64,000 nucleotides of DNA from Macrocystis pyrifera (taxonomy: Eukaryota > Sar > Phaeophyceae > Laminariales > Laminariaceae), in the NCBI GenBank assembly GCA_031763025.1, contig JASSKH010000023.1, positions 6,785,501 to 6,849,500 of the forward strand, written 5' to 3'. This document shows, one piece after another, positions 1-64,000 of the stretch. The translations under genes were made by a program, and so were the position numbers. Under the pieces are notes generated by a model. It did no database searches, was not told where the DNA came from, and saw only the letters and a list, made by a program, of their open reading frames with translations. Position 1 is the first letter of the stretch. Each line of letters opens with the position of its first letter.

Positions 1-149
1 GCCGAATCATGGTCGAGGGTTACTTGCGAAGGCGCAAGCTCCGTCGGCGATCCTCTGCCTAGTAGTATAGGCGAGCTACGTAGCAGTCTGCCGCTAAAGC
101 CGCCGCCGCTGTCGCCATCGACACCGACGTTGACAGGAGCGAAGAGATA
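1..149 (-). CDS. Exon 2 (partial) of the unrecognised minus-strand gene
   Basis: The exon begins TAT CTC TTC GCT right after the acceptor TATTTTGCCAG. It is open to the window edge (49 codons plus two bases) and rich in Gly, Ser and Leu. Its phase 0 start matches the phase 0 end of exon 1. It could be longer; the edge truncates it. Confidence 0.45.
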
Positions 150-1911
150 CTGGCAAAATATAGACTTACTTAAATAGATATATTTCTCCCAAGCGTGCTC
201 GGTGGTACTCCCCCGCCATCTCAGAGCTCCCACTTGAACACCGCCACCTACTATTACTTGCCGACGAGAGCCATTTTTCCTGTTCGCTTCTTTTGTTTCA
301 TGTGCGTGCGTGTACCCAGAGCACGGCACACCGCGGGCGAGCCCGGCGCCGTCGCGGGCGTCAGCGGGCGCTGGCGGGTAGAAGGGGGGTTGGACGGAGC
401 GCGGTCGCCGTTTTCGTGGCTAGGCGTCGCGTGTCCATCGAGACATGAGGGAAGCATGAACGGGCCCTGTCTGACCTCCTGGTGTGGGGTTGGATATATT
501 ATGTTCGAGTCTATAAGGGTCGTCTTCGTTTGCAAAACAGTTTTCAAGCGGTGCTTATTCTGCAACCAAGCTGAAGTTCACAGAGAGAGCTCCACAGTCT
601 AAACTCCAACATTAGCGAGCTGGCGAACGAGGGACACGGCGAGCACGGGGTTCCACGCGAGGCGCGCCATGGTGCTCACTGTGACAAGAGAGAGCAAAGC
701 TTCACCCAGACCGAATCGGTGGCGAGGCGGTCACGAGAGGGGCGGACGGCGCACGAGGCTAAGAGAAGCTCTGCTGTTCGATTTTTTTGTTGTTGACCAG
801 CGCAAGGTGTTCCAATCAGGCGGGAGAAGGCAGCATCAGAGAGGGCGCGGATAGTTTTTATATTTTATAAGAAACTAAGAAAGCACGTCAGCTGTGAGTT
901 TAACCGATCGGCAGATCGGTCGATTCTCAACTTTGCAAGCTGCGTGAACCGCGCGCGTTTTCCATTATTTCCCTCGCGATTGACTACTGGCCAGAGACTC
1001 CCCTGGATGCCACCAGGGTCGACGAGACGATGATGTTTTTATATTCAAATTTTCGTTTTTTTTTTTTGTTTTCATTTTTTTGCGGCGGGTTGCCGTGCTG
1101 TGATTTCTCTTTCTCGAACATATCAAAAGAAGTATGTACTACCGGTACGTACATGCATGCGGCGTCCGGGTTGTTTTCTGGATGGAGCATGGAGCTCTTG
1201 GCATTTGCAAGTCGTCTGTTTGCACCTACATTTTTGCTCCGTCTGTTCCGTTCATTTTTTCCTCGCGAGCGAGTGCAGCGGGCGGTCGCTGCGCGAAACG
1301 TCTTGTAAATTACCTGGTAATACGTAGCAGTTCCGCATACCGGTACGAGTACAAGGTGCCTGATACAAGGCCAGACACAAGCACTTTGTTCGAATATCTG
1401 ATTGAAGTATGAGTTTGTAGGGACTCGTTCCAACTGCTTGTGCGTGTGTTGATAAGCATGATAATCGGTAACAGGTACCGGTACTCAGTTATGACCCGCC
1501 TTGAACGCCTACTATGATTAATAATTAATAGTACCTAGTACTATTATTGTGACACTGCTGAAAAAACTGAACGCATCGTCGCAGAGTAATATACCTGGTA
1601 TGTGTCTGCAACATGGATTGCTTGTCAAACCGTGGCTCAAAAATAAAGACGAACATCCAACAACCCAAAGTCATGGCAGCAGCAAAGGCAGCAGACGACG
1701 AGCCACATACCTTCGCAGCAGCGGAGGAGGGGGAGGAGGAGAAGGAGGAGGAGGATGAGGCACGCCCGGCGAGCTTCTTGGGGACCTCGCTGCCCAAGAT
1801 CTCCCTCCACCAAGCTCTGTGTCTCTTCATTTCGGGGTGCAGCATCGTGGTGCGACTCCCGAGCGCTATCACTGCTTCGCTCTCGCTCAGCGTAAACGTG
1901 GCGGCGGCCAT
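1..1911 (-). CDS. Unrecognised gene, 5' part (two exons, runs off left edge)
   Basis: Two exons on the minus strand join in phase. Exon 1 (1911 down to 1711) starts MAAATFTLSESEAV, continues through MLHPEMKRHRAWWREILG, and ends in a Ser-rich low-complexity tail before AAG|GTATGT. Exon 2 (149 down to the window edge) follows an acceptor TTTTGCCAG and stays open for 49 codons, including APVNVGVDGDSGGGFSGR. I chose the start because it is the methionine after which the charged, non-repetitive sequence begins; an upstream in-frame ATG would add 18 residues. I do not recognise the family and assign no function. The 1.56-kb intron holds a 1.1-kb dispersed repeat. The start codon faces the CBS start across about 320 bp. 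The exon calls rest on reading-frame continuity, splice consensus and matching phase 0. Confidence 0.55.
205..1310 (+). repeat. Dispersed repeat family A, single copy
   Basis: This block matches, in reverse orientation and over nearly its whole length, the tandem pair at 20.06-21.79 kb. Shared landmarks are ACCCAGAGCACGGCAC, GTGTCCATCGAGACA, CCGAATCGGTGGCGAGG, the stretch around ACATGCATGCGGCGTCCGGG, and GGAGCTCTTGGCATTTGCAA. Short ORFs inside shift frame between copies, so I do not call it coding. It lies inside the intron of the minus-strand gene. Confidence 0.75.
854..1045. mobile_element. Nested ~180-bp insertion with 11-bp direct repeats
   Basis: Relative to the two other copies of repeat A, this copy holds about 180 extra bases between two copies of GTTTTTATATT (854-864 and 1035-1045). 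The other copies run straight across this point. The direct repeats look like a target-site duplication, so the insert is a mobile element or retroposed fragment. It contains GGTCGATTCTC, which resembles a Pol III B box but lacks one T. No coding sequence was seen. Confidence 0.6.
1711..1911 (-). CDS. Exon 1 of the unrecognised minus-strand gene
   Basis: This exon has 67 codons in phase 0. Its donor reads AAG|GTATGT on the minus strand (donor at 1710-1705). The last third is a Ser/Ala run encoded by imperfect TCC repeats, so the exon end sits in low-complexity sequence. The opposite strand is also open here but shows only poly-Glu, which I take to be the shadow of the Ser run. Confidence 0.55.
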
Positions 1912-2231
1912 TGTCGCAGGGAATAAGCACCGACCACTCAGATCTCCTCTGTATGGACACAACAATGTTTACGCTTGCAACAGTGGTTGTCACGTTCGTT
2001 TTATAGCAGCGGTGGGCCTCCTGTTGAGACCCAGTGCTGCTGTAGGGACGAAGTTAGGTACCGTACCGAGACAGAGAGGAGAGACGAGACGAGCGAGAAG
2101 ATTAACGTAGAAAAGGGTTTTGTAAAACGTTGGGAAGCGATATTTGTTAGGACCTTTTTTCAACACGATTCAACAGCAACCGGACCAAAAGGACGAGCAG
2201 CAGCCACCACCATTAGCACAACACCTAGACG
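1912..2231. promoter_or_regulatory. Divergent promoter interval between the unknown gene and CBS
   Basis: The start codons of two oppositely oriented genes lie 320 bp apart, so both promoters and 5' untranslated regions should be in this interval. I see no TATA box at a convincing distance. The right half (about 2060-2230) is rich in GA and AC and free of the repeats that fill the introns. Individual binding sites cannot be assigned from sequence alone. Confidence 0.5.
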
Positions 2232-2492: not shown

Positions 2493-5400
2493 GTGAGATT
2501 TTTTTGTTGCCAAATAGTCTCCTATCCAGGACGCTTGCTCCTCTCGCGGGCGCTTGCCCATGGCCTACAGACAGACCGCAGTAGCAACAGCTGCAACAGC
2601 CAGCAAGAGCAAGCTTTCGAAAAGTGGGTTAGAAAAAGCAAAAACCGCCGATTGAACTCGGTACTTTTTGGGGTTTGGGGGCCCTAAAACTGGCTTCTTT
2701 TTCGGCCTAATTTCAACTTGCAGGCCTCCCTGTGGTTGCGGCGACTTTGTGACGTCTGTCAGTATACTACTGTTTTTAACCAGCATAATGTTTGCGACGG
2801 CAGACTCGATAGCCTTCGAGCCACCCCCCGCGTGTAGCTCTGCATTGCCGCGGTAGGGCAGGTCAAGGCTCAGCTACTATTAATAGCTGTAGCGTTGTTC
2901 TTGCTCCGTCTATTCACTGCATGGCACAAACGAACTCATTTTTCGAATACAACATATATCCCTTTTCATCGCTGCGCATCCATCTCACACCTCACACCCT
3001 TGTTGTTCTGGTGTTGATGGCTTTTAGAACTGCAGTCCTGTTTTGGGGACAAACCGCTCAAATTGTAAGTAATTTGTCCCCAAAACGGGATTGCGGTCCT
3101 AACAGAGAATATGCGTACCGGTACCGCTTTTACGTATCTTAATCCGTACGTACGAGTGCAGCAACCTGGTACGATACTGGTGTTAGTTTTAGTGCCCCCA
3201 TGTTCCCATTATACGTTAGGGAATGCCAACTTCTTTCTTATTGTGGCCTGGGGTGTGTCATGGGCGCGTGCGCGAGTTTTTATAGGTTTACCTGGTATCT
3301 ATCAAAGCCCTAAAACCCTCAATTATATAAATATCTACAACAGCAGTAGCAGTAGGATTTCAGATTTCAGCTCCCTTTTTTAGTCATGGGTCACACAGCA
3401 GGGCAAATCGTCCGCAACGTTGAACGTTGAATGGGCGTCGACCGTTTCACTCACCTTCAACGTTGTCAGCTTTCTCCACTATTCACACAAACTTCAACTC
3501 GGTGTGCGTGCAAGTGCCCGGGAAGGTGAGCGTTTCGATCACCTTCACGGTGTCAGCTTGTTGGGAGTACGAGACGTTACGCGACCGTTACGCGTAACTG
3601 ACTTGTGTACGTAGAGACATCTGGCTTATTCTTCCGGGGGTATGTTTCGTATGTATCCGGAGGTGTCGCCGCAAAAATTACAAAATTACGCTTCATGTTT
3701 TTGTCCTTCTTTATTCAGTATTATACTCTCCACCTTTGGCACAAACTTGAACTCGTCATGCATGCAAAGGCCCGGCAAGGTGCGATGCAAAGGCGCAGAC
3801 GGAGCGCAGACCCTTTGATTGCGAGATGCGATGCTCATGCTCAGATACGAAGACACCTTTTCCCAAGCGCAGCAACAGACAGATCTGCAGTGGGCGGAAA
3901 TAGAAAAGAATCGCGTCCTCGTTCCCAGCGAGAGCAGCATATCGTACAAGCGAGTACGTGTAGCTCGTACCATATGCTGGAACGGAGTTTACTTCGTATA
4001 CTATTATTGATGGTAGTACCAGGATACCAGGTACTATACAACAGTGGTAACCGGTGTGACCGGTGTATCTGTAAGAGAAGGCGAAACAGGGCAAGCCACC
4101 GTGCTGAGCCACAGCTGCTGCTGCTGCTGCTGCTGCTACCCTCTACCATTCCTCCTATTTCCCGCCCTCTCACGCGCTTTAACTCAAAACACTCACGTAT
4201 CACACCATGCATCACACCACACACCGCCGTGTATCAATCACACCGCCGTGCCCCATCCCGAAATGTGCTCAATCGTCCCCAAAGCCCACTCACTTGAAGA
4301 TGGCGCTGACATCCGTTAAGCGCACAGCACGACGGACAGATCGTGATCTGCCTGGCGTAGATCGTACGGATCAGTGGGTAGGGACATGTGTAGTACATAT
4401 CCGTGGAACTTCGTCTGCCTTGATCTGTACGATTATCTGATATGTCCGCCGTGTGGAAGCTTGAGGCTTGCAAGAGCACGCGGCGAAGTTAGGCGATAGC
4501 TTTCGGAAGGAAGTTCGACCAGCGTGCACACTGGTTGCGTATCATATGACACCCTTGGCACTGCCTACGGGGAAAATATGCCATTGGTATTTATATACCG
4601 GTGCGGTACAGGAGACCGGTCTTGGTTTGGGCGCGTCAAAACCTATTTTGACTTGATCGTATTTTTTCCTAGCGTTGGGGGCGGGCTGTTCGCGAGAGAC
4701 TGGTCCTTTTGGCGACGTGGACACCTATTTTTGCCTGGTCAAAATGGTGGCGGGCTACTCGTAGTGAACCGGTCTTTTGGGGCGCGCCGAGATCTATGTG
4801 GCCTTACTACTATACTGTGTTTATCGTAGGGAGCGGGCTATTTGTAGGAGACCGATCTTTTTGGGCGAGAGGAAAGACGTACGAGTATATCTGGCCTTAC
4901 GATTATGGTTTGAACGTGTATGAGAGGCGGGCTATTTGTAGGAGGCCGGTCTTTTTGGGCATGTTTGAGACCTTTGTTGGCTTTACTGCTCTTAATACCA
5001 GGCATTTATTATGAAACAAGGATGACAACAGCCGTCGACAGACAGTCAACCAGCTGAGGGTTTATTTCCGGATCGCCCCCCCCCAAAAAAAGCAAAGACA
5101 CCACCAATCCTGGCATAAGCAAGCCTAGGGGGCGGGCTATTCGCAGAAGACCGGTCTTTTGGGGCGCGCCAAGATCTTCTTTCAGGCCTAACTAAACTGT
5201 TTTTTTTTAGCGCGGGGGACGGACTACTGGTATGATAGGAGACTCGGTCTTTTTGGGCGCGTCAAGCCCTCGTTGGCCGTGTTGTGTTGACTGTAGCGTT
5301 TAGGGGATGGGCTATCTTCAGGAGACGGATCCTTTTGGGTGCGTGAATACTGCTGTAGTTCTGCCTGATTGTAGTGGTTTTAGCTTATATAGGGGGCTGA

Positions 5401-8400
5401 CTATTCGTAGAGAGACCCATCTTTTTGGGCGCGTGGATACTCCTTTGACCTTATATGTTTTTGTACTGTTGTTAGCGGGCAATTCGTAAGAGTCGTCTTC
5501 AGGGCGCGTGAACACGTACGAGTGCCTTTATGTTGTTTTTTAGAGCAGGAGGCGGGCTATTCGTGGGATACCGGTCTTTCTGGGTACGCCAAGACTTTTG
5601 CTGGCCTCATCCCAGTGTTTTTAGCATAGGGAGCGGGCTATTTGTAGGAGACCGGTCTTTTTGGGCGTCCCTGTTGACGTTATTGTACTATTTTTAGTCT
5701 ACGGGGCGGGCTATTCGTAAGAAACCGGTCTTTTTTCGGGCGCGTCAAGACCTCTTTTGGCTTCATTATGCTGTTTGTTTGTTTTTGGCAGGGAGGGGAG
5801 TCAAGGGGTCAAAATCGCGGTCTCTTGCCCTCACATATGATACGTATCCGTATAGCATACCTGGTATTTGCTTTGGTACCGAGGGGGATCGTAGCAAGCT
5901 CCGATCTACAGCAGTATCAACGTATCCTTCCACGAAAAAAACGTAAAAAACCCGCGCCGCCGACACATTCCGTATATAACTTGCCAGTACCTGGCAGCTT
6001 ACACAGCTGGCTACGAATCTATCGAGCGATCAATCGATCGAAATCACAACTGATATGTAGTTGGTGGTTACCGGCGGAGGTTACCGGCAGAGTTGCTTTG
6101 TAGTTTGCACGTCTGCGTGAAACATACCACTCTGGGTGGAAATGTAAGCACCGTTTGGTGTTCATAATTACACCCCAACGGTGCTTACATTTTCGTCCTC
6201 ATTAGTAAAACGTGGTCGCCCTTTTTGAGCTGGAGGGTGATTTGATCCCGGAGACCGCGCTGCGCTGTCCAGCCGAAAAACTCCGGGTTTTTTGTTTTTC
6301 TCCCTTTTTTTCGCCGTGCCTTTCATCAACGTATATACAACTATTACGGGTGCCCATGTATGGTATTAATAGTTAGAACTCGCGATGGACACAAGAAACA
6401 TGTATCCATCCCCCTATGTTCGCAGGTGTAAGGCCGCAGTTGACGACAGCAGTTGCAAATGTTCCACCACCAGCGCGAGTTCCTACCTATAGCGAGAGGT
6501 GTCCCTATTCCAATCTTTCTATTTTCGGAACGAGATGCAGTAAATACTTGAAGCGCTCCCGAGTGGGGCCGAGCGGTTCCGGCCACAGAGAAGCCCGGCA
6601 GATGCAGTGCAACTTATGAAAAGGTTGAACGGCATCCCACTGCAAGAATTTTCCAAGTCTACCAGATGCTGTCTTTTTTCTCTCTTTTTTTTTTTAATTA
6701 CCAGCATCCCGCTGCAAGAATTTTCCGAGTCTTGTTCAAACCATTGTAGTGTTTGTACCCAAAACGTGCGCGCAACGTGTGAGGGATCTCGCGTAGACCT
6801 GCCCGCGCAGGCGAAGTTGCTTCTATTTACGGGGGACCACAGTAAATAGGACCAAATATTGTTAGTAAAAATAGGGAAATATGTAGGTTTTTGTGAGTAC
6901 CGTGGGTCCTATTTACTGTGCATAGACCTGCCCGCTCAGCGCCTATAGCGAGAGCCCTTCCGAGCACTCGACGACCCCGCGACACACCAACCAAGCGGCC
7001 CTCGGGTTAGAATTAGCGTTAGCGGTAGGGTTGGAGTTCCGGGAAGGGGTGGTGACGGCCGCCGTCAGCCGAGACCGAAGCAAATCTCACGGTCGTCGGG
7101 AACCGAAAGAAACTTGACGTAGTGATGTTCTCACATTACCTCATTTCGTAGAATTCTAGCCACCGTGGTCACAAACCAGGCTAAACATGTACGGTACCAA
7201 TCTGGGCGTAAATAGAAGGATCTCATGGTACTCGTGCTAATGTCTAAACGTTCCTCATATTTGAGCTCAGGGTGAGTGATACGGTCTGCAGACAGCAGCA
7301 GTCTCGTGACCAAAGCCCTCTGACCTCGTTGAAACGGCATCGTGTTATGCGGGATGTGATTTTCGCCTGCGGGGGGCAAATATACCGCGGCTGGTTACGA
7401 AGGGGGTTGAGGTCCGTCACAACAGCAGTGCCAAAACTACGCTGCCAGTACGTATTCCCAGTAACTCGCCAGATTCAGTATATATCTTGCCGGTACCAGT
7501 GTATACCTCGCCAGTACCGGTATATACCTCCCCAGTACCAGTATATACCTCGCCAGTGCCAGTATACCTGGTATACCTCAGAGTACGCTCTCAGGGTGCA
7601 CTCCACGGCGCGGTTGAGCGTCCCGCTGTCCCCCAGAATACTGAACTCACCCCCTGGGCACTTCATTGGTGTGCTGGTACGTTGCGCCTACCAGCAAGAA
7701 CAAACGGAAGTTGACCCCTTTCGTTTATTTTTGGCGCCTAGTCCGGCGTTACCCGTATTACATCACGCGGGATACAAAAAATCCCCTTGCACTATTTTTT
7801 CCTCCAAGCCAATTTCGGTCGACGACGAGGAAAGTACAAAAAAACCCCAGAGCGGATGTGTGTGTGTATGTCTGTGGAACTTATCTTGAAGGACGAGATT
7901 TTTCTCCCCCTTTTGCGTGTCCGTTGTGCGTCCGTATACGTAGACGTAGCTTCCCTTGTTTTGTGGAGAAAATCGGATCCGAAGGAGTCATGCTAAGAGT
8001 GTTTTTTTTTTCTGCATGGGGCGTGTTATCTTGCGGACCATACGGTATCGCTCTTCTTCTAGGATCGATGTCACCACCGATTGTGCCACGCCACCGCCTG
8101 TTTTCGGCCGCTTTGGTGGTGTGGGGGGTGGGAAGGGAGGGATACAGGAGAGGCTCCCCACGCTCTTGGCTCTTCTCTGGATCCCCCCGCCCTGGTCGGT
8201 GAAAACCCGATGTTGTCCGTCCCGGCATTGTTGGGAGGCGAATGTCTATGGTCATACGACTACGGCCATGCATGACATGAGTACAACCCCCCCTACCCCC
8301 CCCCATCGCCGCCCCCCACCCTCACCCCCCCGCCCCTTTCTACTCCCTCCCGCCTTCCACCTCTCCCGTGCGTGTCCACCCCAATCCCTGATACCTTGGC

Positions 8401-11400: not shown

Positions 11401-14400
11401 AGCATGGTTGATAGTTCACACCAACTCCTTGTTCACGTCTTGACCCCGAGAAAGTTCCGCGGCGGTCGGGGTTAGGCTTTTTTCCCCTACCTGTAGCATC
11501 GACAAAAGATGGTTGATAGACTACATTACTATTGTAGCTCCTCTTTTTTTTCTCAACTAAACGCGCTGCGAATCTCACCCCCCCCCCCCCTCTTCCGGCT
11601 TGAACTCCCCCTCCACCTCTTCAGGTACGCCAATGTTTCTAACCCCATGGCGCACTACGAAAACACGGCGGAGGAAATATTGGAGCAATGTGATGGGCGC
11701 GTGGACATGGTTGTGGTGGCGGCGGGTACCGGTGGAACGCTTACGGGAGTGGGGCGAAAACTCAAGGTAAAAGGCCACCTATCCCATTTTCATTGTGCTA
11801 AAGCTTTGTTGCGATAATCGGTCAGGGGGGCTTCATTGTGCCGCAAGTCTTCTTGCGATCATCGTTCAGGGAGGGGTTGTACTCCTATATCATGCATGGC
11901 CGTAGTCGAATGACCGTAATCGTTCAGGAGGTTCGTTTGTTGTGCTTGGTTTTGTTGCGATAAATCGTTCCGGGTGTGATTCCCGCCCGCTCCCAGATAG
12001 ATTTTTTTATTGTTCGGGCTTCTATGTATGCAAGTGGTCTCTTGGAGTCGGAGTTTCTGTCAAAGGAGGCGTTGTATTTAGAGGCTGGGGGGGGGGGGGT
12101 ATGCGAGTGGGGCGAAAAATCAAGGTATTTTTTCGAGTCGGAGTTGCTACCAAGAGAGACGATATTATATCTTGACGAGTTGCTACTGCACACGGCCGCC
12201 TAAGATATCATAATAATCTCTTTTGAGCTACTGTAGGATGTCGACATATTATTTTAAGGGTTTTGCCCAGTGTGGGACAGCACACCCTGTGCGAGATCGA
12301 TGTGGAACACCGCGAGCAACAGGGTCTACGGCATTATCATAAGGCTTGAACGGTGTACTTCCGGGACTACTAGTACGTTACTCCATAAATCTACGTAGAC
12401 CTGTCGTCAACTATTAACCTACACTGCGCGAATTCATCTGTTAGTTCCAAATCGTGGCCCCTCCGCCTTTGGAGCGAACCCCCAACCTTAGTACCATTAA
12501 CTCCCGAATGTGAAGGACCATTTGGATTCAATGTTAACAGCGTTTTGCGAAGAAATTGGTTGACCCCTGTTCGGTTAAATTTACTGTGGTCTGTTTACTT
12601 TAGGAGCATGACCCCAACCCAACACAAAACAATTACTTACGTAGGTTATGTACCTGGTATGTGGCATTTTGGCCACTTTTTGCCACAACCTTCACACAGA
12701 TGCTCCCAGTACCCGGGAGTGAAGTAAAAGTGTTTCCGAGAGAATACTTTCAGGTACCTCGTGTACTCGCAGTAGTTGGGCTCTGTGTGCTGCTGCGAAA
12801 TACTGCGAGTTCGCAGAAATACTGCGAGTTCGCAGAAATACTGCGAGTTCGCAGTGTTTTGAGATCCTTTGCTGCGAATACTGCCGCGCTTGCAGTATTT
12901 TCGGGGTTCAATACTGTGGAATACTGCTGTGATTCTAAGTATTTCAGGGGTCTATGTTGCGGGTACTGCCAAATACTGGCAGTATTTCGTCCGTTTGGTA
13001 CTCTGCGAGTACCCGGAGCACCAAAATACTCTCAATATGCGCTGTATACTCGGGAGTATGAAGTATGCTTCGACCATGTGTGCACCGTTTCGATTATTCC
13101 ATCCCCATTTTATTGCAGAGAGCACCCACAGATGGTCCGACGAGCGGGAGTTGGAGCAAGTTACTTTCGGGAAGGAGACTGGAGTACTTACAGCAGAGTA
13201 CTGGCAGCATTTTCGGGAGTATATAGCGCGAGTACTCGCAGTATTTACGGGTTCAGTCCTCTGAATACTCTGAGTACTCAAGTATTTTAGATGTTTGTAC
13301 TCCGGGTACTCGCTGTACTCGGGGCTCTCAACTGCTCATACTCCCAATACTCGCTGTCTTTTGGGCCTTCCTTACTGATATACTCCCAGTGCTCGCAGTA
13401 TCCAGGTCGCCAGTATTGCAATACTCTCAGTACTCGGAGTACGAGATGTGTTCAATACTCCGAGCAATACTGGGAGCATATTTGCAGACCTACACGAAGA
13501 TCCTTAAAATTTCGTGGGTATAGGAAGCAGACCGCAAGAAAACCCAACCGATTCGGCTTGAAACCCCCAATAATTCGCAAGCTTCTTGCGTACGTACCTA
13601 TAGATAGATGTACAGATAGTATCATACTGCTATTCACCGACGGATCGATCTTCGGCGTCCGACCCAAAACACGAGTCCTCGAGTAGGTTTAGCAAATCTG
13701 GAAGAAGGGATCTTTAGGGGTGTTTTTGACTTGAAAATTGCGTAGCGCGGTCTGCACTTCGGAATCGTCGTCTGCAATTAAGAAATTTCCTGGTTCGATG
13801 CAAACGCGGCGCGGCCGCGTTTCCGTTTTGGCTGCGGTTTGGGGTCAGGGTTAGGGTCAGGCTTAGGGTTATAGGGTTAGAGTCAGGGGTTAGGGGTTGG
13901 GTCTTCGCCCGTACCTTGATCCCAACAGGAACCAAAATACCTGAACAGCCTACCAACCCAAAGATCCCTTCTCCCAGATTTCTATAATAGGGGACCTCCA
14001 AAACATCTCGGAAATACGCATCACTCACGCTCGACGGCAGTTTTCAGAAAGCTTCCACGAGCGCAAGTTCCTACAGCGATGGACCATACTATTACGGGGG
14101 TCCATAGTTAACAGGACCTATGGTACACACAAAAACTTATATATTTACCTATTTTTACTAACAAAATTTGGTCCCATTAACTATGGACCCCCGTAATATT
14201 ATATAACAGTGATCCGGACCTCATACATACACAAAAACCTACCAGGTATGCATTTTTATTTCCCAGTAATTTTAATAAGTACATGTGGTCCTCATTACTC
14301 TATTCCCCCATACCCTATATCTTGAAAGGGGGGGGGGGGGGGGAGCAGGACCCAGGATAAACACAAAAACCTACTGGTATATATTTTTATTTCCCAGCAT

Positions 14401-14437
14401 TTTTAGTAAGTACATTTATTCCCCCGTGCCCTCTCTT

Positions 14438-17400: not shown

Positions 17401-20400
17401 GTGCTACATGCGTTGTATGCGTTGTATGTGCTGTATGTGCTGCATGCGTTGTATGTGCCGTATGTGCTACATGCGTTGTATGTGCTGTATGTGCTGCATG
17501 CGTTGTATGTGCTGCATGCGTTGTATGTGCCGTATGTGCTACATGCGTTGTATGTGCTGTATGTGCTGCATGCGTTGTATGTGCCGTATGTGCTACATGC
17601 GTTGTATGTGCTGTATGTGCTGCATGCGTTGTATGTGCTGCATGCGTTGTATGTGCCGTATGTGCTACATGCGTTGTATGTGCTGTATGTGCTGCATGCG
17701 TTGTATGTGCCGTATGTGCTACATGCGTTGTATGCGTTGTATGTGCTACATGCGTTGTATGTGCTGTATGTGCTACATGCGTTGTATGTGCTGTATGTGC
17801 TACATGCGTTGTATGTGCTGCATGTGCTGTATGCGTGTGATGTGTGCGTTGTGTGTGTTGTACGTGGTTTGTGTTCTGTATGTGTTTGTTTTGTGGGGTA
17901 ATGTGTTGTATGTGTTGTATGTGCTGGGTGTGCTGGGTGGGTGGGTGGGTGGGTGGGTGGGTGGTGGGTGGATGTGTCGCACACGATGACTATACATTGT
18001 TAACTGTTTTTTGTCCATGCCGGCCCACGCACACCCATGGCAGTTGTGGACCTTTTTGTGCCAATTTCTTTTTTTTGGTCAAGTGTCCACAATACAGTAG
18101 GCATCGTTTGGGGTCGCAACGCCCTCCACCCCCCCCCCCCCCCCCCCACCCCACCCCCTTCCTCCCTTGCATTAATGCCAAAACCCTTGCTCCCTCGCCG
18201 GCTCTTAGTTTCCTGCCATGTCCCTCTCTTGACTGTAACGGTCCACATTCCCCGTTTCACGCCTCACCTTACCTCACCTCCCCTCCTCTGCCCCCCACCC
18301 CCAACCCGTTATTTTCTCCTTTCGTTTTTGTTGTTGCTGTTGCGCCCTCGGTTCTGGTTATTTTTCTTGTTATGTTTCTTGTTCTTGTTCATTTTCGTTG
18401 TTTGTGTTAATGCTTGTATTTTTCGGTGTGTGTGGGGGGGGGACAGTCGAGCGAACGGCTGGCAAGATCCTGGTGGGCGAACAAGAAGGTGTCGGAGCTG
18501 GAGCTGCAGACCCCGCTTACGGTCACCCCGAACGTCTCCATCCAGGTGAGCATCAGAGCATTCAAGAAATAGCGCCAACCACTTCTATAAAAGCAACAGG
18601 TCACGGCATTCAAGAAAATTTAGGAAAATACGTTGTTTTGGCTCGATATTTGCACGAAACGCGTGTATTATAGTACGACTCTGGACGGAATATAAAAAAC
18701 CGTTTCGTCCTCACGCCAATGCCTAAAAGTTCTTTATATTTTCGTCCGTGTGAGACAGCGGGTGCCACACCAACCACTTCTATTAAAAGCAATACTTTAC
18801 GACATTCAACAAGTGTAGGAAAATGCTTTTTTTGGCTCGGTATTTGCACGAAACACGTGTACATAATACCACTCTGGACGGAATATAAGAACCATTTCGT
18901 CTTCACTTACAATGCCTAAACGTTCCTTGTATTTTCGTCCATGTGAGAGAACGGGTGCCGTCGCCGCTGCCGCCGCCGCCGCCGCCGCCGCCGCTATGGT
19001 CGTACCTCGGTGGCTGTTGTATCGATGCGACCCAGTTCTGGTTTTCGATGGGTTTCATTAGTATATCTGTAGAACTACAACAGTACATGCGCGAAAGGAC
19101 GTAAGGAGTAGGAAGCTGTTAATATAGGCAGTTTTGCCCCCCCCGCCCCCGAGTTTTGCTGGAAAAAAAGGTAGTATACCTGGTAAGGTGTAGTCCAGGG
19201 TTCGACCCAAAAAAACGAAACTCGACGCCCCGCTTTCACTTCCCATTTCCCGAGACCCAGACAGGGGAGGGTATACTAAAACCAAGCATAACGACAAAAC
19301 AAAAAAAAATGAAGAAAAGTCGCTATTCGTAAATTGTCTAGAAATCCCAACGCACTTCGAGTGGTTTGTTCTTCGTTTTGACGCTGGGAAGAGTGTAGGT
19401 CGTTCTCTCTGCCAGTCTCGTTGATCTGGAGGAGAAATTTGCCCTCGGGACTTCTATATATTCAGTTCTGGTGGAGTTGAAAAATACGTCTCGGGCGACC
19501 GACTGAAAACCATCCAGTGAATCCTGGAGAGACACCAGAGGCTCTGTGGCGACAAACCCCGAGACGATTTAACACAGAAGAAGCTGTGCGGCGTCGATAG
19601 TCTGTTCGTTATGTGCTCCTTTTACAATAAATAAATCGTTTTGCGTTTGTTTGTTTGTTTGTTTTTTTTACTGCCTGCAATTTGTGTATATACTGGTAGA
19701 GGACAGACACACTCTGCCTCACGGAATAACGTCAACACAAAAATAGGAGGTTTTCGCAAGTGGCCTCGCGTACTGTAGGGGTGACGCTAGTGCCTACCGC
19801 TATACCGCCGACGCCGACGAAGTTAGCCCGTTTAGTACCGCAGTCCCGTTTTGGGGACAAATCACTTGGAATTAGACTGGTTTGTCCCCAAATCGGGACT
19901 GCGGTACTGAAGGGGTTAACGCCACCTACATTGGAAACCGATTTTTTTTCTCTGTTTCCCTTTTTTTTTTTGTATAGATCGGTCGCGACTGGTGGCGTGT
20001 TTGCTTGTGCTTGCTTGGTGATTGCGTTTATGTGTTTGTGTGTGTGTGGGTATATATATGCGAAGCGCTTCGCGTAGCGGGCGGTTCCGCCCCCCACGCT
20101 CGCTCACGAAGAAGAATTCAACGGAACAGATGGTCCAAACATTAGGTGCAAACAGGCGACTTGCAAATGCCAAGAGCTCCATGTTCCATCCACGAAAACA
20201 AAACCCGGACGCCGCATGCATGTACGTACAAACTGCTGTAGTTTTCATTTTTTCTTTTGATACGTACGAAAGGGAAAGCACAGCACGGCACAGCACGGCA
20301 AAAACAATGTAAATGAAAACGAAAATTTGAAAGAGAAAAAAAAAAAAAAAACTGTCTCCTCCGATGTATAGTAATTTCCCGCCGGATTGGAACACCATGC

Positions 20401-31830: not shown

Positions 31831-31839
31831 TATACCAGG

Positions 31840-32060
31840 TATGTATCTATCTGATGTATCTACTGTAGATCATCTACTTCCTCACCTGCCGCTTTGAGTT
31901 TTCGTGCAGGATCTGCATCGTACAAGATCTAAACCAGGACACATACATGTATGTATGTGCTACTGCTGACCATGCAGATTATACGGCCCCCACGCGGTAA
32001 CATGAGCTATTATATGTGCAGTAGATCATACATATCACTGAAACTCTATCTGACCTGATA
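31840..32060 (+). repeat. Repeat family G copy (~200 bp)
   Basis: It carries GTAGATCATCTA, the CTGCCGCTTTGAG segment, AGGATCTGCATCGTA and CATGCAGATTATACGGC. Other copies lie at about 28.85, 33.80, 39.72 and 41.12 kb in the same order. It is AT-rich and non-coding. Confidence 0.7.
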
Positions 32061-32369
32061 GATCTACTGTAGATGCACGCTGTGGGAATCGACTACCAGG
32101 TATCTGTCAGAGATGTCATCGTGCTGTTTCAGCCCTTTTTCAGCCGCTTACCGGCCGTAGTGCCAACCGGGTTGGTTGCCTGTTACCCTCCTATGGTAGT
32201 ATCATGCAGCGAGCGTGCCGGGCACACACTCTGTCGACATTATTCCGCAGTGTACCCGGGTTCTCTACGTAGCCCTGTAGCTTCATACGTTGTGTGGCGG
32301 AAAGTGCAACCCGTGCCCCGTTAGACGCGAAACAAACAAACGAAAAAATGGGCAGAGAGTTCAGAGACG

Positions 32370-41504: not shown

Positions 41505-43650
41505 GAGTGACGGCGCTGACCTTCTCTGCAGGTACACATGTTATCATACTCGTGCTCTGTGGGCGCAAATCGTTGCCTTTCTCGACGTAGTACGTGTACC
41601 TACAAGTAGAGTGTCGGGCCATCGAACGAGAGTCGAGTTTGATAAATGTCCCGATACTAAAACAAAAAAACTTCGTAATCGATACAATATCCAATATTTC
41701 ATGATGTACATCGAAGCTCTTGTTTTAGTGTCAGCATCAAAAACGCGCGAATGCCAGGGCATGGAGTGCAAAACACCTCCGACCGATCTATCGAAAGTTC
41801 GACGTTTCACATTCGTACGATATCCAACACTAACGTACATACGGTCCAAGATATGGCACACGATTTGCACGAGTTGTAAATTATCAATGTATCGATACGC
41901 GTGGAGGTTGGTGCGGGCGCGCGCCATTGCGCCATCGGAGTGGCGCGAGCAGGAAAGCAAAATCCCTCGTGCTGCTTGCTTGCTGTACGCAAAGATGCTC
42001 GCACGGGTGCACAGGAAACCGGTGTTCCTGGGGCGCGTTGGCAAAGCAACTTTTAGGCCCCAACATTCCAGTTTTACTGTACGGGAGCGGCCAGTCAAGG
42101 GTGCCTACCCCTTGTACAACACCACTACCTTGCACATGCGGAGATGGCATGCTGGGGAGAAGAGCGCTGCAGAAGAGAGACACGCGGCGGCTGCGACTGC
42201 AACACGGACCGCGGACACCAATGTACCCAGGGGTGGGGGCGGGGACGTGGACTGGGGCGGGGGCGGGGGGGGGGGGGGGGGGGGGCTCTGCTCAAACGCT
42301 TGCCGACTGAGCATGGCCTTCATCGTCATGATGCGTGCCTTCCTAGTGCCATAAGAAGCTAGTGCGGGCCCTCCCGGACTCTCTCGCCTGGCTCCAGTGC
42401 CTCCTTTTCGCTTTCCCCTTCTTCTCTTTCATTTCTCTTCCTCGCTTTTGTCTTTTTCTTTCCCTTTTCTCTTGTTCTTTCTTTGTCCTGTTTACGCTGC
42501 TCTTTGGCTTCGCATCCATTTCCTTTGCGCTCGTGTGTTTAGTACGCGTGTCAGACCTATTTTCTCCATGGGACTTGATTTGACCTCATTTGCTTTGATT
42601 TGATGTGTTTCATTTCATTTCACTTTTCTTTCTTTCGTTTCAGCTTGTTTCCGTTTCGTTTGGCTTTTCGTACGCCGCCCGATTGGATTAGGTGAAAAGG
42701 GGTATAAGTTGCAAATGATGTGCAAGGATTTGACTTTTTCCTGTATGATGTGCACAATGTGTTTCGCCCATGATGTGTACTCGTATCTGACTGTTTTTGG
42801 TATCATTTGATTCGACTCGTATCTATTTTCTCCTGAGGTATTCTTCCGATTCAGTTTTTGGAGACTGTCTCGGGACCATGGACTCAATATTTTGGACATG
42901 AGGATATGTGAGAACAACATAATGTGAGAACAACAACAACTCGTGTATATACGAGTATCATATTTTTGGTCAGGACATGAACTCGTCCAAAACCTTTTCG
43001 GGTCCGCACATGAACTGGTGCAACACCTTTTAGGTCAGCACGTAAAACTTACCTGGTATGTCGTTTGATCAATTTCTACCTTACACGTTGGTCCACACCC
43101 AACCCGACTCCAACCCTAACCTCGAAACCCTAACCCGAACCCCAACCCTTTGGAGGGCTTGAGGTCGACAAGGGCGGTCGCGCGGCTCCTCCGCCGCGTG
43201 TCCGTTGGTGTTTTTCATCGTTAATCTGGGCCGACCGAAAGGCCAGCCTCCATCAATCACACAGCAGTAGCAGCCGCAGCAGTGGTTGTTGCACCCATTT
43301 AAGTGCAAGCTGGTGTCCCTCAGGAGGTCACACCACGGTCTCGTACAATATGTTTTATTAAACTTCTACTACTGTCACCGATATGGTACGAGTTACAACA
43401 CGTACTGCTGTACCCGTATATACGAACGCAAGTTACGGCGGTATACCGGTCTAATTTCCACAAGCTGATATGCTCGACCAACAAACCATCGTACCCTTCG
43501 GCCTGCCCCGTCCTTGGGGTGGGCCGAGGAAGTCCGCAAGGATCTGCAACGGTCTAGCGACAGTCACACGAACATCGAGCTTCTGGCTGAGTAGAGAGGG
43601 TACCTTGCGCGGTCCGGCTGGTGGCCTGATCGCTTTAAGGACCGCGTGGG

Positions 43651-47760: not shown

Positions 47761-49784
47761 CTTGTGCTTTGTTTGGTTTGACTGTTATTTTTCCCTTGGT
47801 TCTTAGTCTTACTCTGTTGACGACTAGTGGTGTTTTCTTCTTTTTCTTTTTTTTTCCAGCTCGTTCTTTTCAAGTGTCTGCCACGTCCCCTACGTGGGGG
47901 TACGATGGTTTGCTGCTATACTGAAGTATATACATATACCAGGTATATTTTAGTTTCTTTTTTTGTTTCTTTTCTCTTTCGAATTGTCTTTGTTTTTGTT
48001 TTTGTTTTTGTTTTTTCTCTTTGTTTCGTTTTTGTTTCTCTAGGTCATGGAATGTGTATGTCGTGCCTGTCGTACGCAGTATGATGACATGGCATTGCAT
48101 TACATACGTGGCAACGTAGTCTCTGTGGCGTAGCTTTGTGACCACAGAACTTGTATCTCTCTAGGTTTGAAGAATCGGCACGGACACTGGTTGTGCTGGA
48201 TGTCGACGCGTAGAAAGAACGGTTTAATGTGAAGAAAACAACAACAACAACACCACGGGGAGGGCGCAAACGCCAAGCGGTATATACATCTATGGGCAGA
48301 TCTCGACAAGACCTTGCCAACTCCGTCATTTTCGTTGTGTGTACCCCCTTTACGTACCAGAGGTACCTTAGCAGTTTCGGGGAAACTACGTACAAGTATT
48401 AAAATATTAATGGTCTCAGAAATTTGTCCCCTCAGGTGGGGTGCCGTCTCGCGCGTTATCTATATATACGACGCTGCTCTGTTTACGAGCAAGCGGGAGA
48501 TGGGGCATGTACACCCTGCTTCCAGCACGCACCCCTTGTATGTCGCACTGACCCGGGGTAGGTGTTTTTTTTTTTTTCAATTTTCGATGCAGCAGATACT
48601 TCTGATGCTGCAGCAGCTGTATATGACCTTAAAACTAGTCGTACTTGGAATACTCGGTTTCGCTGAGAAATCCACGCAAGACTGGAAAGCTGGGAAAGCT
48701 GGGAAGGATCGCCGGAGGCGTGCCCACGTACCCACGGGCGATGATGAGGGTGTTTGGGAACCCTTTTGCAGCACCGTATACAGAGTCAGTTTGTGCTATC
48801 CAGAATCGTGCTTCCGCACTGTGCAACACGTAAGCCAGGCGCCACCGGATGAGGGGCACCGGCGAGGACGCCGTGGTACGCAAAAACGGAGGCAGCATGT
48901 GCGTGTCGCTTCTACGCGTGGGCCTCTAGAGGTGGTCACGGTTGACGACTCCCGCCAAAAGCTAAGCTGACTTCGTGATGAAACAACAACAACAGATGTC
49001 GATTATGGAAACGGCAAATCGAACTGGCAAGCGACAATACGAGCTCACCATGAAGTGGAACTCCGGCATGGCTTTACCCTCTTCTTCAGCTAGTGTTTCG
49101 CTGTATGTTTCCTGCTCCTGGGTGTAACTAGAGCGAGATAAGAGGCGTAGAGATTGCTCGACAACTGGCTCTCAACCGCTGCAAAAGAACATCGAAATCC
49201 TCCCTACTATAATAACGCATCCCAAAAAACAACGAACTCCCATGAGGGCTGACAACTCAAAACCAAACTCAAAACTCTGTGGTGGGCCAGGCTTCGACAG
49301 GGTGGTTCAACATGAGGGTCACTCGTGCAAAGCAGTACCGAAGGCACCTCCGCTTCTTTCGGATCGTGTACGGCATTTCTGCACCTTATAAGGCAAGCTT
49401 GAGCAGGGAAAACCAGAGGTTGAATCCTATCATATGACGCAAGTCCACAGTCACCACGCCACCTGACGGCTGGCTCTCTTGACAACACTTGGTGTTGACT
49501 TGACAGTCCAGTCGTCCAGACTACTGTTGTACATCCAGTTTCGTGCTGGTTCATAACGAGTATGTTGCGAACGGTTACCAGCTACCAGGTACCTGGTAGT
49601 TGCTAAGTCTACCCTTTTGGTCGCTGCACATATGATAACAGTAGTGTCTCGGCAAGCTCGTTCGTACAGCAGCTTCCACAGACACCCAGTATCGAGCAGT
49701 AGAGATGTGAGCGTGATTGAAGCGAGGATCATCATGGGTGATGGGCTATGGGTCGACACGCCGCCTCTGTTTCGCCTGCTGTAG

Positions 49785-50499: not shown

Positions 50500-51030
50500 T
50501 ATACCTGGTATATTTAGGTTGGGTTGGCGTCGGTTGGCAACGACGCTGTAAAACACGCCTCTCACTGCGTGAGCTAGACAGCCAAGGTACCTTTTTTTTT
50601 TTTTTTTTTTTTGGCGGTGACCACGGCTGGCGGTCAAGTTAGATAATTCTTGTGCGGGGAGAACCTTCACTCCGCACAAGGGGGATGATCGTATCACGTA
50701 GTGTGCATATGGTGAGGCACCCACGAGGCTGTTACATAGTACCCCTATTGCTGCCTCTGGAAGTGGCCACACCATAAATTTGACCAATTCATTGGTGCTG
50801 TCATCCATATGCAAGAAAATCCGCCTCTAAAGCGGTTTTTAGTAGGATGCAGCTCACCCTTCATGCGACTCGCCCAACACCTCACGGCGCTTCGCGCTTG
50901 GTGCAAGTAATGTCTGCCTGGTCGGTGAAAAACCGACATGCTCCGTCCCGGCATTGTAGGGATGCGAGGGTCTATGGTCATATGACTACGGCCATGCACG
51001 ATAATGAGTACACCCCCCCCCCCCCCCCCC
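50500..51030 (+). repeat. Repeat family S, longest copy (~520 bp)
   Basis: It starts near TATACCTGGTATATTTAGG, has a T22 tract and GGCGGTGACCACGGCTGG, then CACAAGGGGGATGATCGTAT, GGATGCAGCTCACCCTTCAT, CACGGCGCTTCGCGCTTGGT and GGTCGGTGAAAAACCGACA, and ends GAGTACACC plus C17. There are no open frames of note. Read in reverse it has a TGGCCGTAGTCG stretch resembling a Pol III A box, and an internal A tract. Confidence 0.85.
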
Positions 51031-54200: not shown

Positions 54201-57200
54201 TAGCCCAAACAAGAGCCCGACTCGAGCGAGGTTTTGTTCTAGATCTGGCTGGTCCAACGTACCAGGTATCTCTGAGGTAGCAGGTAGATTCGATTCGTAA
54301 CGCCGGCTTCGACCTACAACTCCTACGAACAGCGGTGGTATTGATGCTTGCTTGTGTGTCGAGGGGTAGAGTGCGTTCTCTACTGAAGTGTGTTTGCTGT
54401 GCAGCAGAGCTTACCATTTCTCACGAAAAGCCCCCCAATGTTCGTGTCTCGTCGGTCAAGCAGTGTTATCGTTAGGATTAGTGGTGGGGCTAATCCTCTT
54501 TGTCTCGCACGCAGGGTCCGTCGGTCTATACGTAGCGTTGAATGTGTCGCAAATTATTTTCTTCCTGGGCGTCTTCTGTGCAGCCTGTGTACGCTTCGTT
54601 GCGGTGACTTCTGTGGTGTGTACCTTTTTTGTGCGTTTGCTGTGTTGTGTGTATCGTCTACGTTGTTGTGCGCTTTAGTTGCATTGTGTTGTACTCCAGT
54701 AGTATAGCTTTTTTGCGCTTCAGCTGTGAAGTGTGCCTTCTTTGTGCATTGGTTGCACTTGTGCACCTTTTTAATTGTTATGCGTTGGCTGCGCTGTGTA
54801 CCTTTGTTGTTGTTGCCTACTGATGTGATGCTTGTGGTATGTCCCTTTTTTTCGCGGACTGCGATGTGTACCCTTTTCGTGCATCGGGCTGAGCTGCTGT
54901 GTACCGTTTTTGTACGTCGACTCTGCTTGCATGTATCTTTTTTATGCATCTGCTGTACTATTGCGTACCATTGACACAACTGTTTTGTTTGTGCTGACTG
55001 TACAGCTGTTACTTCGTGTTTTTTTCATCTTGACTGATGTTGCTGCTGGTGCTGCTGGTGCTGGAACCGGACGGTGTCGCCGCGTTTTTTTTTTTTTTTT
55101 TTTTTTAAATTTTTCAATCATGCGAATCCAAGGGGGCGTCGCTGCAGCTGTATGTCCCTCGGGCCGCCAGGGAGGAGCTCGAAGCGCTTGGGCCGGACTT
55201 CGAGGCCGCCTACAAGGTATGTCGCCGCCGACATCATGTGTGCTGCCCTGCCCCCCCCCCCCCCTCGTCCTTGCAACACGAGGGCTACATATCGTGCTGT
55301 GGTCAATAGGGCTGTGAGTTGGCTGACTATAAGTCCGCCGACTAAGTACTATTACGGGGGGGGCATAGTAATACATAGCAGTACATACCACTCTGTTCGT
55401 AAGCATAGGGACCGTTTGATTGAATATTAGTATTGAAAAGTTCCTTATATTTAGGGACAGAGTGGTGGTACCCGGTAGTAATCAGAACCCACAATGGACC
55501 CCAGAAACCAGGTATTTCCCTGCTGTACGTTCACGTATCATATTTGGTTTTTATTTTCCATGTTCCCGGGGAATAGTTGGCTACGCAGGGTCTGACGGTA
55601 AGTTGCGTGCGGTAATTTTCGCTGATTTCTGGAATCTTTGCATCTGTGACTGGCGCGTTGTTCTCGTGGCGCGACGTGTGCCCTCTTGTCGATGGAGTCT
55701 AAAAGTCGGTTAGTTGGCTTACTTCGCCACCCGGTTACGTTGGAACTCATAGCCGTGAAATGAGGCACGCCTTGCCCTTACTCACTGCCCTAGCGCTTGA
55801 AGCCAACTCACAGGTGTCCTGTAATATAAGAACCGTTTGGATATAATGTAAACCTATGAACGGTCCATGTATTTTCGGTACAGCGTGGTACCAAGCATCA
55901 GCCGCCGATGTACACGTACTTGTACGTACAGAAACCATATTTTATTTGATGCTATTGCTGTAAACCGATAAGAGTTCGCCCAATATACGCCAGGTATGCT
56001 TCAGCCTTACGCTCGTGCGCATGTATAGATCGTAAGAAAATACGAGAGCACCGCTAGACAGATGTCGAATGCTTTTTTCAGTAGAGCTTATACCACTTTT
56101 TCGACAAAATGGTTGTCACGCTCTGTGCACGAAACGAACAGGGTTCGTATCTCCAACCATTGTTTGATCGTGTTTGATTGGGTCAGCGATGGGGTTAGGG
56201 TAGGTCTTATTGGTCTTGTCACAGGGTGCGACACCCATTTTCTCGAGTAAAGCGGTAAGCCACCGTCAATATTTCGTAGGCTGCCTTTTTTTCTTGGAAA
56301 ACTTTCGTTGTTTCAAATCCACGATGACCTGCGGGGTGTGTATTATATCGATATAAGTGAGCCGCCTACTACTACGAACCACGCTGAATAAAACAGTAGA
56401 GGTTTGCACACTTGCTCGACAACTATGGTTGAAGCACGCTGTGCACGAAACAAAGGGACTAATGCCAGCCAATGGTTGATTGGGTCTAATTGGCTTGGGG
56501 TCAGGCTTAGGGTTAGTTGTGTTCGTACCGTACGCAGTGACACTCAGCCATAAATAGTGTCGAATAACTTCCCTCTGAAAAACACAATGTCACATATACG
56601 TGGTACAAAATTTGGAGAACGCCTGAATGTTTGCGTCACCTGCGTGTTATCACACTATTCTAGAGAAGGGTTGCTTAAAATTTTGCCATCACACCTAACC
56701 CTGACCCTACCGTTTCTCTGGACATCGACGTTTACACCAAATGTATGCATCCCTGATACATTTCTATAACGAAAACGGTCGTATCCAGTTCGCGATGGGA
56801 TACTGCCGGGGGCTTCCCTTGCCCCCAAACCGGGATCCAGAAGAGGGCGATGAGGAAACCCCGGAGGCAGACCCGGCCCGGGAAATTCTGGCGACGATCG
56901 GCCCCGACAACGCCGCCAAGTACCTGGTTGCGTCGCAGGTGCAAAACTATGTTTCGGATTTTTTTTGCGTATTTGTTTGTGTTTTAATCCTCACCCCCCC
57001 CTCCCTCTGTTTTTCCCTCTTCTTCATGGACCGACAGCTACGGTGTGCTGTCATTGTTGTGTTTTAACCAAGAGAGAGAGAGAATGTAGTCACTGTTTGG
57101 TCTCTTATATGAGCATCTATTGTATATTATATTCCCGGCCAGGGTGGTATGCTGTTATAACCCTTGCTGCAATAATGATCGCAAGGTGATCACAAGTTAG

Positions 57201-62109: not shown

Positions 62110-62800
62110 AAGGAGAGGGGGGTAGGTTGGTAATGGTGGCGGTGGAGGTGTTGGCGATGATGGTGCGGGTGGCGGGAGCAGTGGTGGTGATGGTGATGGT
62201 GATGGTGATGGTGGTGGTGGTGGCAGCGGCGGTGGCGGCGTGACACACTAGTGTTCCGCCCGGAGGCGGTATATGTGTCTGTCCGGACTTCGTGAGTCTA
62301 CATTCGTGATCTTAAGCTATTTCAACGTCTTGTCTTCGTTCGCGCCTGCCCCGACCGTTTTGCCGTGTATCGAGAGAGCACCGGGAAGCGGGGGGGGGGG
62401 GGGGGGGGGGGGGGGCACTGTTTTGTGCGCTTGCCCACGATTTGTGTGCCCATGGAATGATTTGTGTGTCATCGACATATTCGTGTGTATCCACGATGTC
62501 GTCCGTGTCATTAACGAAGAGCATGTCGCTTGCTCCTTTTTAGAGGCGTTGGGGTGGAGATAGGGCGAGGGAAGTAACAAGCGCGCAACGGGGAGCATTG
62601 CATTGATGTCGCTGATTGGCGGTGGTCAAAGATGCTATACGTACCTGGTACCAAGGACAACGAGTATATCAGTAGGGGGTCGGGGGGGGGGGGGGGTGTA
62701 CTCATTTGTTGCTTGCCTTAGTCATTTGACCATTGACCACGCATCTCTTTCGAGACAGTATCAGTAGGGGGGGGGGGGGGGGCGATTTTTTTTGGGCGCA
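62110..62800. other. 3' flank of UTP23-like gene: GGT/GAT repeats and poly(G) tracts
   Basis: GGTGGC and GGTGAT words (62.13-62.24 kb), then poly(G) at about 62390-62415 and 62683-62696. After the second comes GTGTACTCATTTGTTGCTTG, TCATTTGACCATTGACCACG and a third G run at 62768. This repeats the arrangement seen at 24.3-24.48 kb. No gene seen. Confidence 0.75.
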
Positions 62801-64000
62801 TGAAGGCGCTTTTTGGCCTTCTTATCCTGGTTTCAGTGTGGGGGGGGACGATCAGTCGAAAGGCGCCAAACCGCCGTCTCCTGGCACTATTGTGGTAAGA
62901 TTCAGGTATTAGTCTGTTGGTGAATGCTTAACCGAACGCCTACCCGAACCAAGCCTTCTAACACTCTCCCCCGCTGGAACGGACCGGATACACGGATCGA
63001 CGTGTCACCAACACGCGGTTCTAATTTCTGGCAAGGGTTACTTCGGGCAGAGTATTTTTCACCTTCGACATGGGGGAAGTTCAACTTTTCTTTCTAGAAA
63101 GGCTTAGTTTGGACTAGAGGGTGATGGGATTCGATGCCGCGACCCAAAACTCATGTCCTGCCGACGACGCCATTTGTTAAGGTTTTAGTCTGTTGGGTTG
63201 CTGGCGAAAGATTAGAACTTATCGCCTACCCAAACTGAGCCTTGTAATATTCCAAGGCATTACCATAGCACCGTTGATGGTGGTGGTGGTGATGGTGGTC
63301 GCGGGTTGGCGGGTCGGGCGGTGGTGGTGGATGTAGCTCGCTTCCCCTCTGCGTGCAAGGATACAGCCCCCCACCCTCGTAGGGACTGCGCGGTCTTCGC
63401 TGATACTCGCTATACACCCCCCTGCGCGCTAACAAATCCTCCCTCCCCTATGTACTTGAACGGGTTTGTTTGAAACGCTGCCGGCGTGTGTGTGGTGCCT
63501 CGTGGTGTGCCCGCGCTTGCTGCCACCCGCCGTACCCCTCCCCGAGAAAGTGCGCTAATGTTAATAGCAGGAGACGGGTCATTTTGGGTGCGTCAGGTGA
63601 CCTTGTTGTACTGGTTTTAGTGTAGGGTGCGATCAGTCGAGGGATTAAACCGCGGTCTCCCCGTTACGCTGTCACTATTAACATTTTCATGTAGGGGTAC
63701 GGTCAGTCAAGCGGACGAAACGCGGTCTCCCCGTCAAGGTCCGTTTTGGCCGAAAGACACTAGTTTTAGTATAAGGGTGCTGTCAGTCAAGCGGTCAAAA
63801 CGCGGTCTCCTCGTCAAGGCTTTGTTTGCCTTGTTGTGCTAACTTCAGTGTATGGGGGCGGTCAGTCAAGCAGTCAAAACGCAGTCTCCTCGTCATTTTT
63901 TTTGTTTGTCTCATTATGCCAGTTTCAGTGCATGGGGGTGGTCAGTCAAGCGGTCAAAAGGCGATCGTCCTTGTTAAGGCTCTTTAAGGCCAATGGCCTA
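62800..64000. repeat. Second array of ~80-bp units (GGTCAGTCAAGCGGTCAAAACG type)
   Basis: Units carry CAGTCAAGCGGTCAAAACGC, GGTCTCCTCGTCAAGG and GTTTTAGTGTAGGGG-like words at about 62840, 63630, 63700, 63785, 63860 and 63940, continuing to the window edge. The tail (GGCCTT, then CTGGTTTCAGTG) matches the tail of the 4.6-5.8-kb array. A separate direct repeat (TTAGTCTGTTGG, CGCCTACCC) lies at about 62911 and 63187. Confidence 0.75.

Follow-up and report, generated by a model that had tools for sequence, protein, structure and literature searches.

The abundant palindrome TACCWGGTA of a brown algal genome as a candidate excision scar of a TA-targeting transposon

The stretch analysed here is a 64 kb window (C204:6785501-6849500) of the Macrocystis pyrifera assembly, which comprises 537,376,219 bases, and its conspicuous feature is the palindromic 9-mer TACCWGGTA. 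Nineteen copies were listed in a preliminary description of the window and all 19 were found again at the positions given there, 11 as TACCTGGTA and 8 as TACCAGGTA; the two words are reverse complements and thus represent one sequence in two orientations (Table 1). Among the genes of the window, exons of a cystathionine beta-synthase, spliced by eye, were found at about 9-17.3 kb, and the predicted protein shared 89% identity with an Ectocarpus protein across 96% of the query, with the next relative in Tribonema (76%); a green-algal origin, at first suggested by base composition, was set aside on these grounds. A long interspersed element (LINE) at 43639-46666 contained frames for Exo_endo_phos (endonuclease) and RVT_1 (reverse transcriptase), and its relatives included Ectocarpus proteins at 54-56% and numerous unnamed proteins. 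Hexanucleotide arrays of GCGGTA/CCGCTA could also be observed at 16375-16969, just ahead of the last exon that was recognised in the cystathionine beta-synthase gene, and at 38442-38600.

Table 1. Copies of TACCWGGTA, interpreted as putative scars, and associated features of the 64 kb window
Feature	Position	Strand	Remarks
Putative scar TACCTGGTA	1311..1319	+	exact match
Putative scar TACCTGGTA	1592..1600	+	exact match
Putative scar TACCTGGTA	3289..3297	+	exact match
Putative scar TACCAGGTA	4025..4033	-	exact match
Putative scar TACCTGGTA	5858..5866	+	exact match
Minisatellite of five units, the fifth 28 bp long and the others 21 bp	7465..7576	+	putative scar TACCTGGTA at 7565-7573; units laid out by eye
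Putative scar TACCTGGTA	12651..12659	+	exact match
Putative scar TACCAGGTA within copy of TTACGGGG repeat family	14240..14248	-	other family copies without scar
TACTGGTA in paralogous copy, one base shorter than scar	14372..14379	+	alignment
Putative scar TACCTGGTA	19177..19185	+	exact match
Putative scar TACCAGGTA adjoining TTACGGGG repeat copy	31833..31841	-	
Putative scar TACCAGGTA	32094..32102	-	weak empty relative 41367-41391 (25 bp, 84%, E 0.03)
Putative scar TACCAGGTA	35727..35735	-	exact match
Putative scar TACCTGGTA	43050..43058	+	gapless empty relative 23937-23964 (28 bp, 86%)
Putative scar TACCAGGTA	47937..47945	-	exact match
Putative nested double scar TA-CCAGG-TA-CCTGG-TA	49583..49598		sites 49583 and 49590
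Putative scar TACCTGGTA	50502..50510	+	paralogue 27802-27912 (-) carries mutated TGCCTGGTA, 82% identity
Putative scar TACCAGGTA	54260..54268	-	exact match
Putative scar TACCTGGTA	62642..62650	+	exact match

Markov simulations of orders 1-4 (40 runs per order) gave means of 0.42-0.60 sites and a maximum of 3, in agreement with the expectation of about 0.5 put forward earlier, and simulations of order 5 gave a mean of 2.27 and a maximum of 6 (40 runs). When all 256 four-base arms around one central base were compared, TACC ranked first, with 20 occurrences for any centre against 0.85 expected; 19 of these had A or T at the centre and one had C. Single-base changes of TACCWGGTA were seen only 0-3 times each in the window, against 19 exact copies, showing that the word is sharply defined. 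After masking of tandem repeats, 17 of the 18 remaining sites were independent by their flanks. The sites therefore do not belong to one repeat family, as had been supposed from their different contexts. In a larger set of 264 kb, consisting of the window and 20 further stretches of the same genome, 51 of 80 sites were independent.

A genome-wide count near expectation had been named in advance as a result that would speak against the excess, and the opposite was found. The assembly contained 121,279 copies of TACCWGGTA and 2,421 of the reversed word, a 50-fold difference; exact copies thus occur every 4.4 kb on average. When one mismatch was allowed, the count rose to 318,292 places, against 79,465 for the reversed word as control, and subtraction of the control left an excess of 118,858 exact and 119,969 one-mismatch copies. 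As the two excesses are nearly the same, the sites look like decaying scars; provided that the reversed word is a fair background, the exact word was not maintained as it would be in a conserved binding site. On the same condition, the genome holds about 239,000 scars that are exact or differ by a single change, and these drift like neutral DNA. In the 264 kb, 68 independent one-substitution sites were counted; of seven comparison words, six had 18-37 such sites and one, CTACWGTAG, had 82, being itself in excess. The site at 50502 and its paralogue share the scar at an overall identity of 82%, one copy being mutated, which indicates that some scars are old, and from this alignment the scar at 50502 is probably one of them.

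Nested doubles of the form TACCWGGTACCWGGTA occurred 5,620 times in the genome, and the corresponding control did not occur at all. Such doubles are expected if a second scar was formed in the TA of a first one. By class, 1,409 were CCAGG-TA-CCTGG, 609 were CCTGG-TA-CCAGG and 3,602 had both units in the same orientation. The ratio of 2.3 between the two opposite-orientation classes agrees with the preference for T over A at the third flanking position (odds of about 2.3 in the 264 kb).

Aligned repeat copies revealed that a 7-bp unit, CCWGGTA, had been inserted at TA to give TA-CCWGG-TA, and this conclusion is well supported. Among long repeats in contig C1, the L011:5952 copy read GTGCAA-TACCTGG-TAACT, whereas four copies at 92-94% identity (L007, L008, L010 and L012) read GTGCAA-TAACT and lacked the 7 bp; a fifth copy, L009 (81%), also lacked them, but had GA instead of TA. 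When the L011:5952 stretch was compared with the whole genome, 20 of the 40 scored among 122 candidates spanned 167-170 bp and 20 spanned 162-164 bp, a tally of our own that records lengths only, with a difference of about 7 bp, and in which the insert-bearing query favours filled copies. Both forms could also be observed within a single array of the window, the minisatellite at 7465-7576, in which the 28-bp unit holds an extra CCTGGTA relative to the four 21-bp units. The sequence around the site at 14240, once emptied, aligned with repeat copies at 6828-6895, 14622-14642, 60452-60517 and 60646-60718, three of these four alignments having small gaps beside the joint, and the nearest relative of this site (14361-14415) carried TACTGGTA. 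Sites 43050 and 32094 offered weaker cases of filled and empty relatives. The number of unrelated contexts indicates that the insertion had happened many times. Insertion at TA with duplication of the TA, as in footprints of the Tc1/mariner type, was thereby seen in aligned copies as well as in the length difference of about 7 bp.

If TACCWGGTA takes the place of a TA, its flanks represent the target. In the window, the third position outward was a pyrimidine in 34 of 38 flanks, and none of 2000 random sets of 19 TA sites was as extreme. The symmetrised flanks had T at outward position 1 in 21 of 38 cases and at position 3 in 25, in line with the TAT that had been noted beside the sites. Of the 102 flanks of the 51 independent sites in the 264 kb, 52 had T at position 3 (29 expected), 45 had T at position 6 (26.7 expected) and 79 had A or T at position 7 (about 53 expected). 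With the sites oriented according to the centre base, left and right flanks broadly agreed, and inspection of 47 single sites by eye revealed no clear association of centre and side. The target is thus TA in a weak palindromic context and not the word itself, which had been suggested as a recombination or insertion target. An AT-rich palindromic context around TA is also the target of Sleeping Beauty, Bari and ZB; for the Tc1-like ZB, an excerpt of the source gives ATATATAT, similar to the targets of the other two (PMC7913693).

The most probable explanation of TACCWGGTA, to which a probability of roughly 0.7 may be given, is that it is the excision scar of a TA-targeting cut-and-paste transposon. 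Such an element would have inserted at TA with duplication of the TA, its inverted-repeat ends would have begun with CCWGG, and its excision would have left overhangs of presumably 5 nt. As CCWGG is palindromic except for its centre, these overhangs would anneal like sticky ends, and as they would pair at four of five positions, repair would be precise and yield a uniform scar. Correction of the central A:A or T:T mismatch to A or T would then produce TACCAGGTA or TACCTGGTA, and the scars would afterwards drift neutrally. The element itself would now be rare, gone, or of a kind that escapes the searches made here. The same logic applies to the Sleeping Beauty footprint TA-C(A/T)G-TA, to which the scar described here would add two more paired bases. 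It would therefore work like a Tc1/mariner footprint, but is not classed as one, as neither an element nor a transposase is in hand. Of the earlier suggestions, the footprint of a very short mobile hairpin comes nearest, given the 7-bp insertion at TA in repeat copies, while the scar of a larger TA-targeting element is preferred to a mobile 7-mer.

Comparison with known systems was based on excerpts of the papers cited. Sleeping Beauty and Frog Prince produce 3′ overhangs of 2-3 nt and a footprint of C(A/T)GTA (PMC3878927); they share with the present case the TA target, the TA duplication, a palindromic remnant with an A/T centre and an AT-rich palindromic context (PMC3878927, PMC7913693), but leave three remnant bases and not five, and in the kelp more than 120,000 exact copies occur and no element or transposase was found. 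Stowaway and Osmar, the plant mariner elements, likewise leave fragments of terminal inverted repeats between TA duplications, with insertion at the TA of an older footprint (PMC1925063). Their footprints vary in length and sequence, with 2-4 bp putatively remaining from one side and 1-2 bp from the other (PMC1925063), whereas one sequence dominates here. The organelle genomes of Volvox carteri also carry short palindromes across non-coding DNA, but these are 10-100 nt long, mostly organellar and with the core TCCCCTTTAGGGA in most of the plastid ones (PMC2670323), and the host here is a brown alga; sharing was complete only over the 9-mer in our sites, with a weak preference beyond it, and not over hairpins of 10-100 nt. 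In Ectocarpus, also a brown alga, Mariner-Tc1 elements form 17 families with almost 12,000 copies, most of them non-autonomous (PMC12477816). In the literature on the 9-mer, footprints, excision and algal transposons, judged mostly from search-result entries, no report of the word as a scar was encountered.

A second family in the same genome provided a parallel. The 109-bp, TA-flanked TTACGGGG family is probably a TA-duplicating miniature inverted-repeat transposable element (MITE). Inverted repeats of this family, of the form TA-TTACGGGGGTCCATAG..., were observed at 14090-14198, 14570-14678, 60140-60752, 6827-6902 and 31271-31830. The word TATTAATA was enriched in the 264 kb (31 independent sites, 4.9 expected) and had an exact empty counterpart (L009:8572 against L007:4951). 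It was flanked by C and G, with G outward in 63%, and C preceded the TA in 5 of 10 MITE ends among the matches listed. TATTAATA thus fits as an excision scar of the TTACGGGG MITE, with two bases from each end between the TAs, in C-TA-G targets, and this parallel supports the reading of TACCWGGTA as an excision scar. Occurrences of TATTAATA, mostly as CTATTAATAG, were noted at L009:8572 and L007:4951 and in the window at 6364, 14546, 59789 and 60396. TAGGNCCTA, present five times in the window, was considered as a second footprint and rejected, since its sites lie within the TTACGGGG repeat family.

Several results weigh against excision of a transposon as the source of the scars. Searches limited in size or mismatch yielded no inverted-repeat element with CCWGG ends, either in the window or in the 264 kb, and a scan for insertions in repeat copies yielded no TA..CCWGG element. 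Six-frame searches, which are limited by introns and decay, gave no genome match for the transposase domains DDE_3 (PF13358), whose control matched in 3 of 14 genomes, or Transposase_1 (PF01359), whose control was silent everywhere. The remnant of 5 bp is longer than the 2-4 bp quoted for the Tc1/mariner superfamily in the excerpt of PMC7913693, although the putative Stowaway footprints sum to 3-6 bp, and for excision events the scars are very numerous. The numbers forecast in advance for the double classes (about 2,200 and 2,810) failed, as 1,409 were found and same-orientation doubles, with 3,602, were too many; this excess may perhaps be due to a 7-bp unit that was later duplicated in tandem or to a non-random choice of the centre. 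In automatic tests for empty sites, no clear separation of sites and controls was obtained. In the window, the emptied form aligned better in 2 of 19 sites and in 9 of 188 control TA-N5-TA places, and the intact form in 2 of 19 sites and 54 of 188 controls. In the 264 kb, 9 of 79 sites had a gapless empty relative, as did 67 of 946 controls, and an empty without an intact relative was obtained for 4 of 79 and 23 of 946, respectively. Under a stricter rule 5 of 79 sites had empty relatives, of which three or more were double scars that matched one another, and among eight other TA..TA words four had none and the others had 4/37, 6/38, 5/33 and 9/98. The insertion claim accordingly rests on the inspected alignments and not on automatic counts.

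Abortive integration, in which a transposase joins the element ends to TA and the intermediate is then undone, would leave the five terminal bases and a duplicated TA behind without a settled element. It predicts the same scar structure and target preference as excision and could account for a very large number of scars in a genome with few elements or none, but it likewise requires transposase activity, of which the two family searches gave no sign, and the excerpts of the cited literature make no mention of it; it is regarded as unlikely. Slightly less credit still is given to a self-spreading micro-palindrome, i.e. a 7-mer that a repair or polymerase process would itself spread to further TA sites. 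The very high copy number, the nesting and the excess of same-orientation tandem doubles would suit such a process, whereas the palindromic target preference reaches 7 bp into the host DNA, as expected of a transposase, and no enzyme is known to us for which a mobile unit of 5-7 bp would be recognisable. A protein-binding site had also been proposed. As a selected site of a dimeric DNA-binding protein, be it a regulator, an insulator or a chromatin factor, it would be consistent with the palindrome and its symmetric flank preference. This is improbable, as presence and absence differ by an exact 7-bp insertion, about one decayed copy exists per exact copy in a neutral-looking decay, and sites occur on average every 4.4 kb with nested, overlapping copies. 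Chance, composition or copies of one repeat family can be dismissed, even though some sites do lie within repeats such as those of contig C1, in view of the 50-fold excess over the reversed word and the independence of most sites in both the window and the 264 kb.

The surprising part of excision as the preferred explanation is its scale, with one exact scar per 4.4 kb and no element found. A more speculative possibility is that an undescribed TA-targeting DNA transposon or a domesticated transposase with 5-nt self-complementary overhangs had cut in and out hundreds of thousands of times, as a 'ghost' element known only from its scars, its removal having perhaps been programmed or nearly complete. 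Studies of excision scars usually deal with a few of them, and here one scar sequence occurs more than 120,000 times in 537 Mb. If the explanation is correct, word counting would reveal past transposon activity after the elements are gone, the activity could be dated from scar decay and the target preference measured from 100,000 natural events. Excision would then have produced 7-bp insertions on a considerable scale, perhaps at a quarter of a million places, and a 5-nt self-complementary overhang would be an unusual route to precise footprints. The CCWGG ends would provide a clue for finding the transposase.

Other words and repeats were examined alongside. TACCGGTA, described earlier as also frequent, was indeed in excess in the window (7 sites, 1.1 expected), but it is probably a separate matter, since it lacks the target-like flank pattern and its copy at 7515 is a point variant of the minisatellite. 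TACGAGTA, also in excess, lacked target-like flanks as well; under the stricter rule, empty relatives were obtained for 0 of 22 TACCGGTA sites and for 6 of 38 TACGAGTA sites, four of the latter in CTCGTA repeats. In the window and L005-L024, TACGAGTA was counted 30 times (9.5 expected), TACAGCAGTA 19 times (1.5 expected) and CTACWGTAG at 15 independent sites, against 1-3 for the six other comparison words. Two candidates for an element were rejected. The segment L020:663-921 (259 bp, with CCTGG inverted ends) consisted of double scars in DNA with one genome copy. Inverted TACCAGGCTCTA(C/G)TGCGCA as an element end gave 79 matches per strand with up to one mismatch; among 100 matches listed, these recurred every 11-16 kb or so, with pairs mostly about 1.1 kb apart, and resembled long tandem arrays and not a dispersed family. 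Long repeat units holding this inverted sequence were noted in contigs C1, C7, C8, C24, C149, C153 and C160, the longest open stretch among those listed being 181 codons in the parts examined. Scans of viral contigs for the MITE end, the LINE protein and the double-scar pattern found none of these. Rfam gave nothing at the gathering score and a few sub-threshold matches, those of two copies of the 109-bp family being to microRNAs only. Inverted repeats reading TTAACCC(C/T)TTCAG..CGCAGTCCC were observed at 19824-19920, 34017-34126 and 41410-41504; their ends resemble TTAA, and they are possibly a MITE of the piggyBac type.

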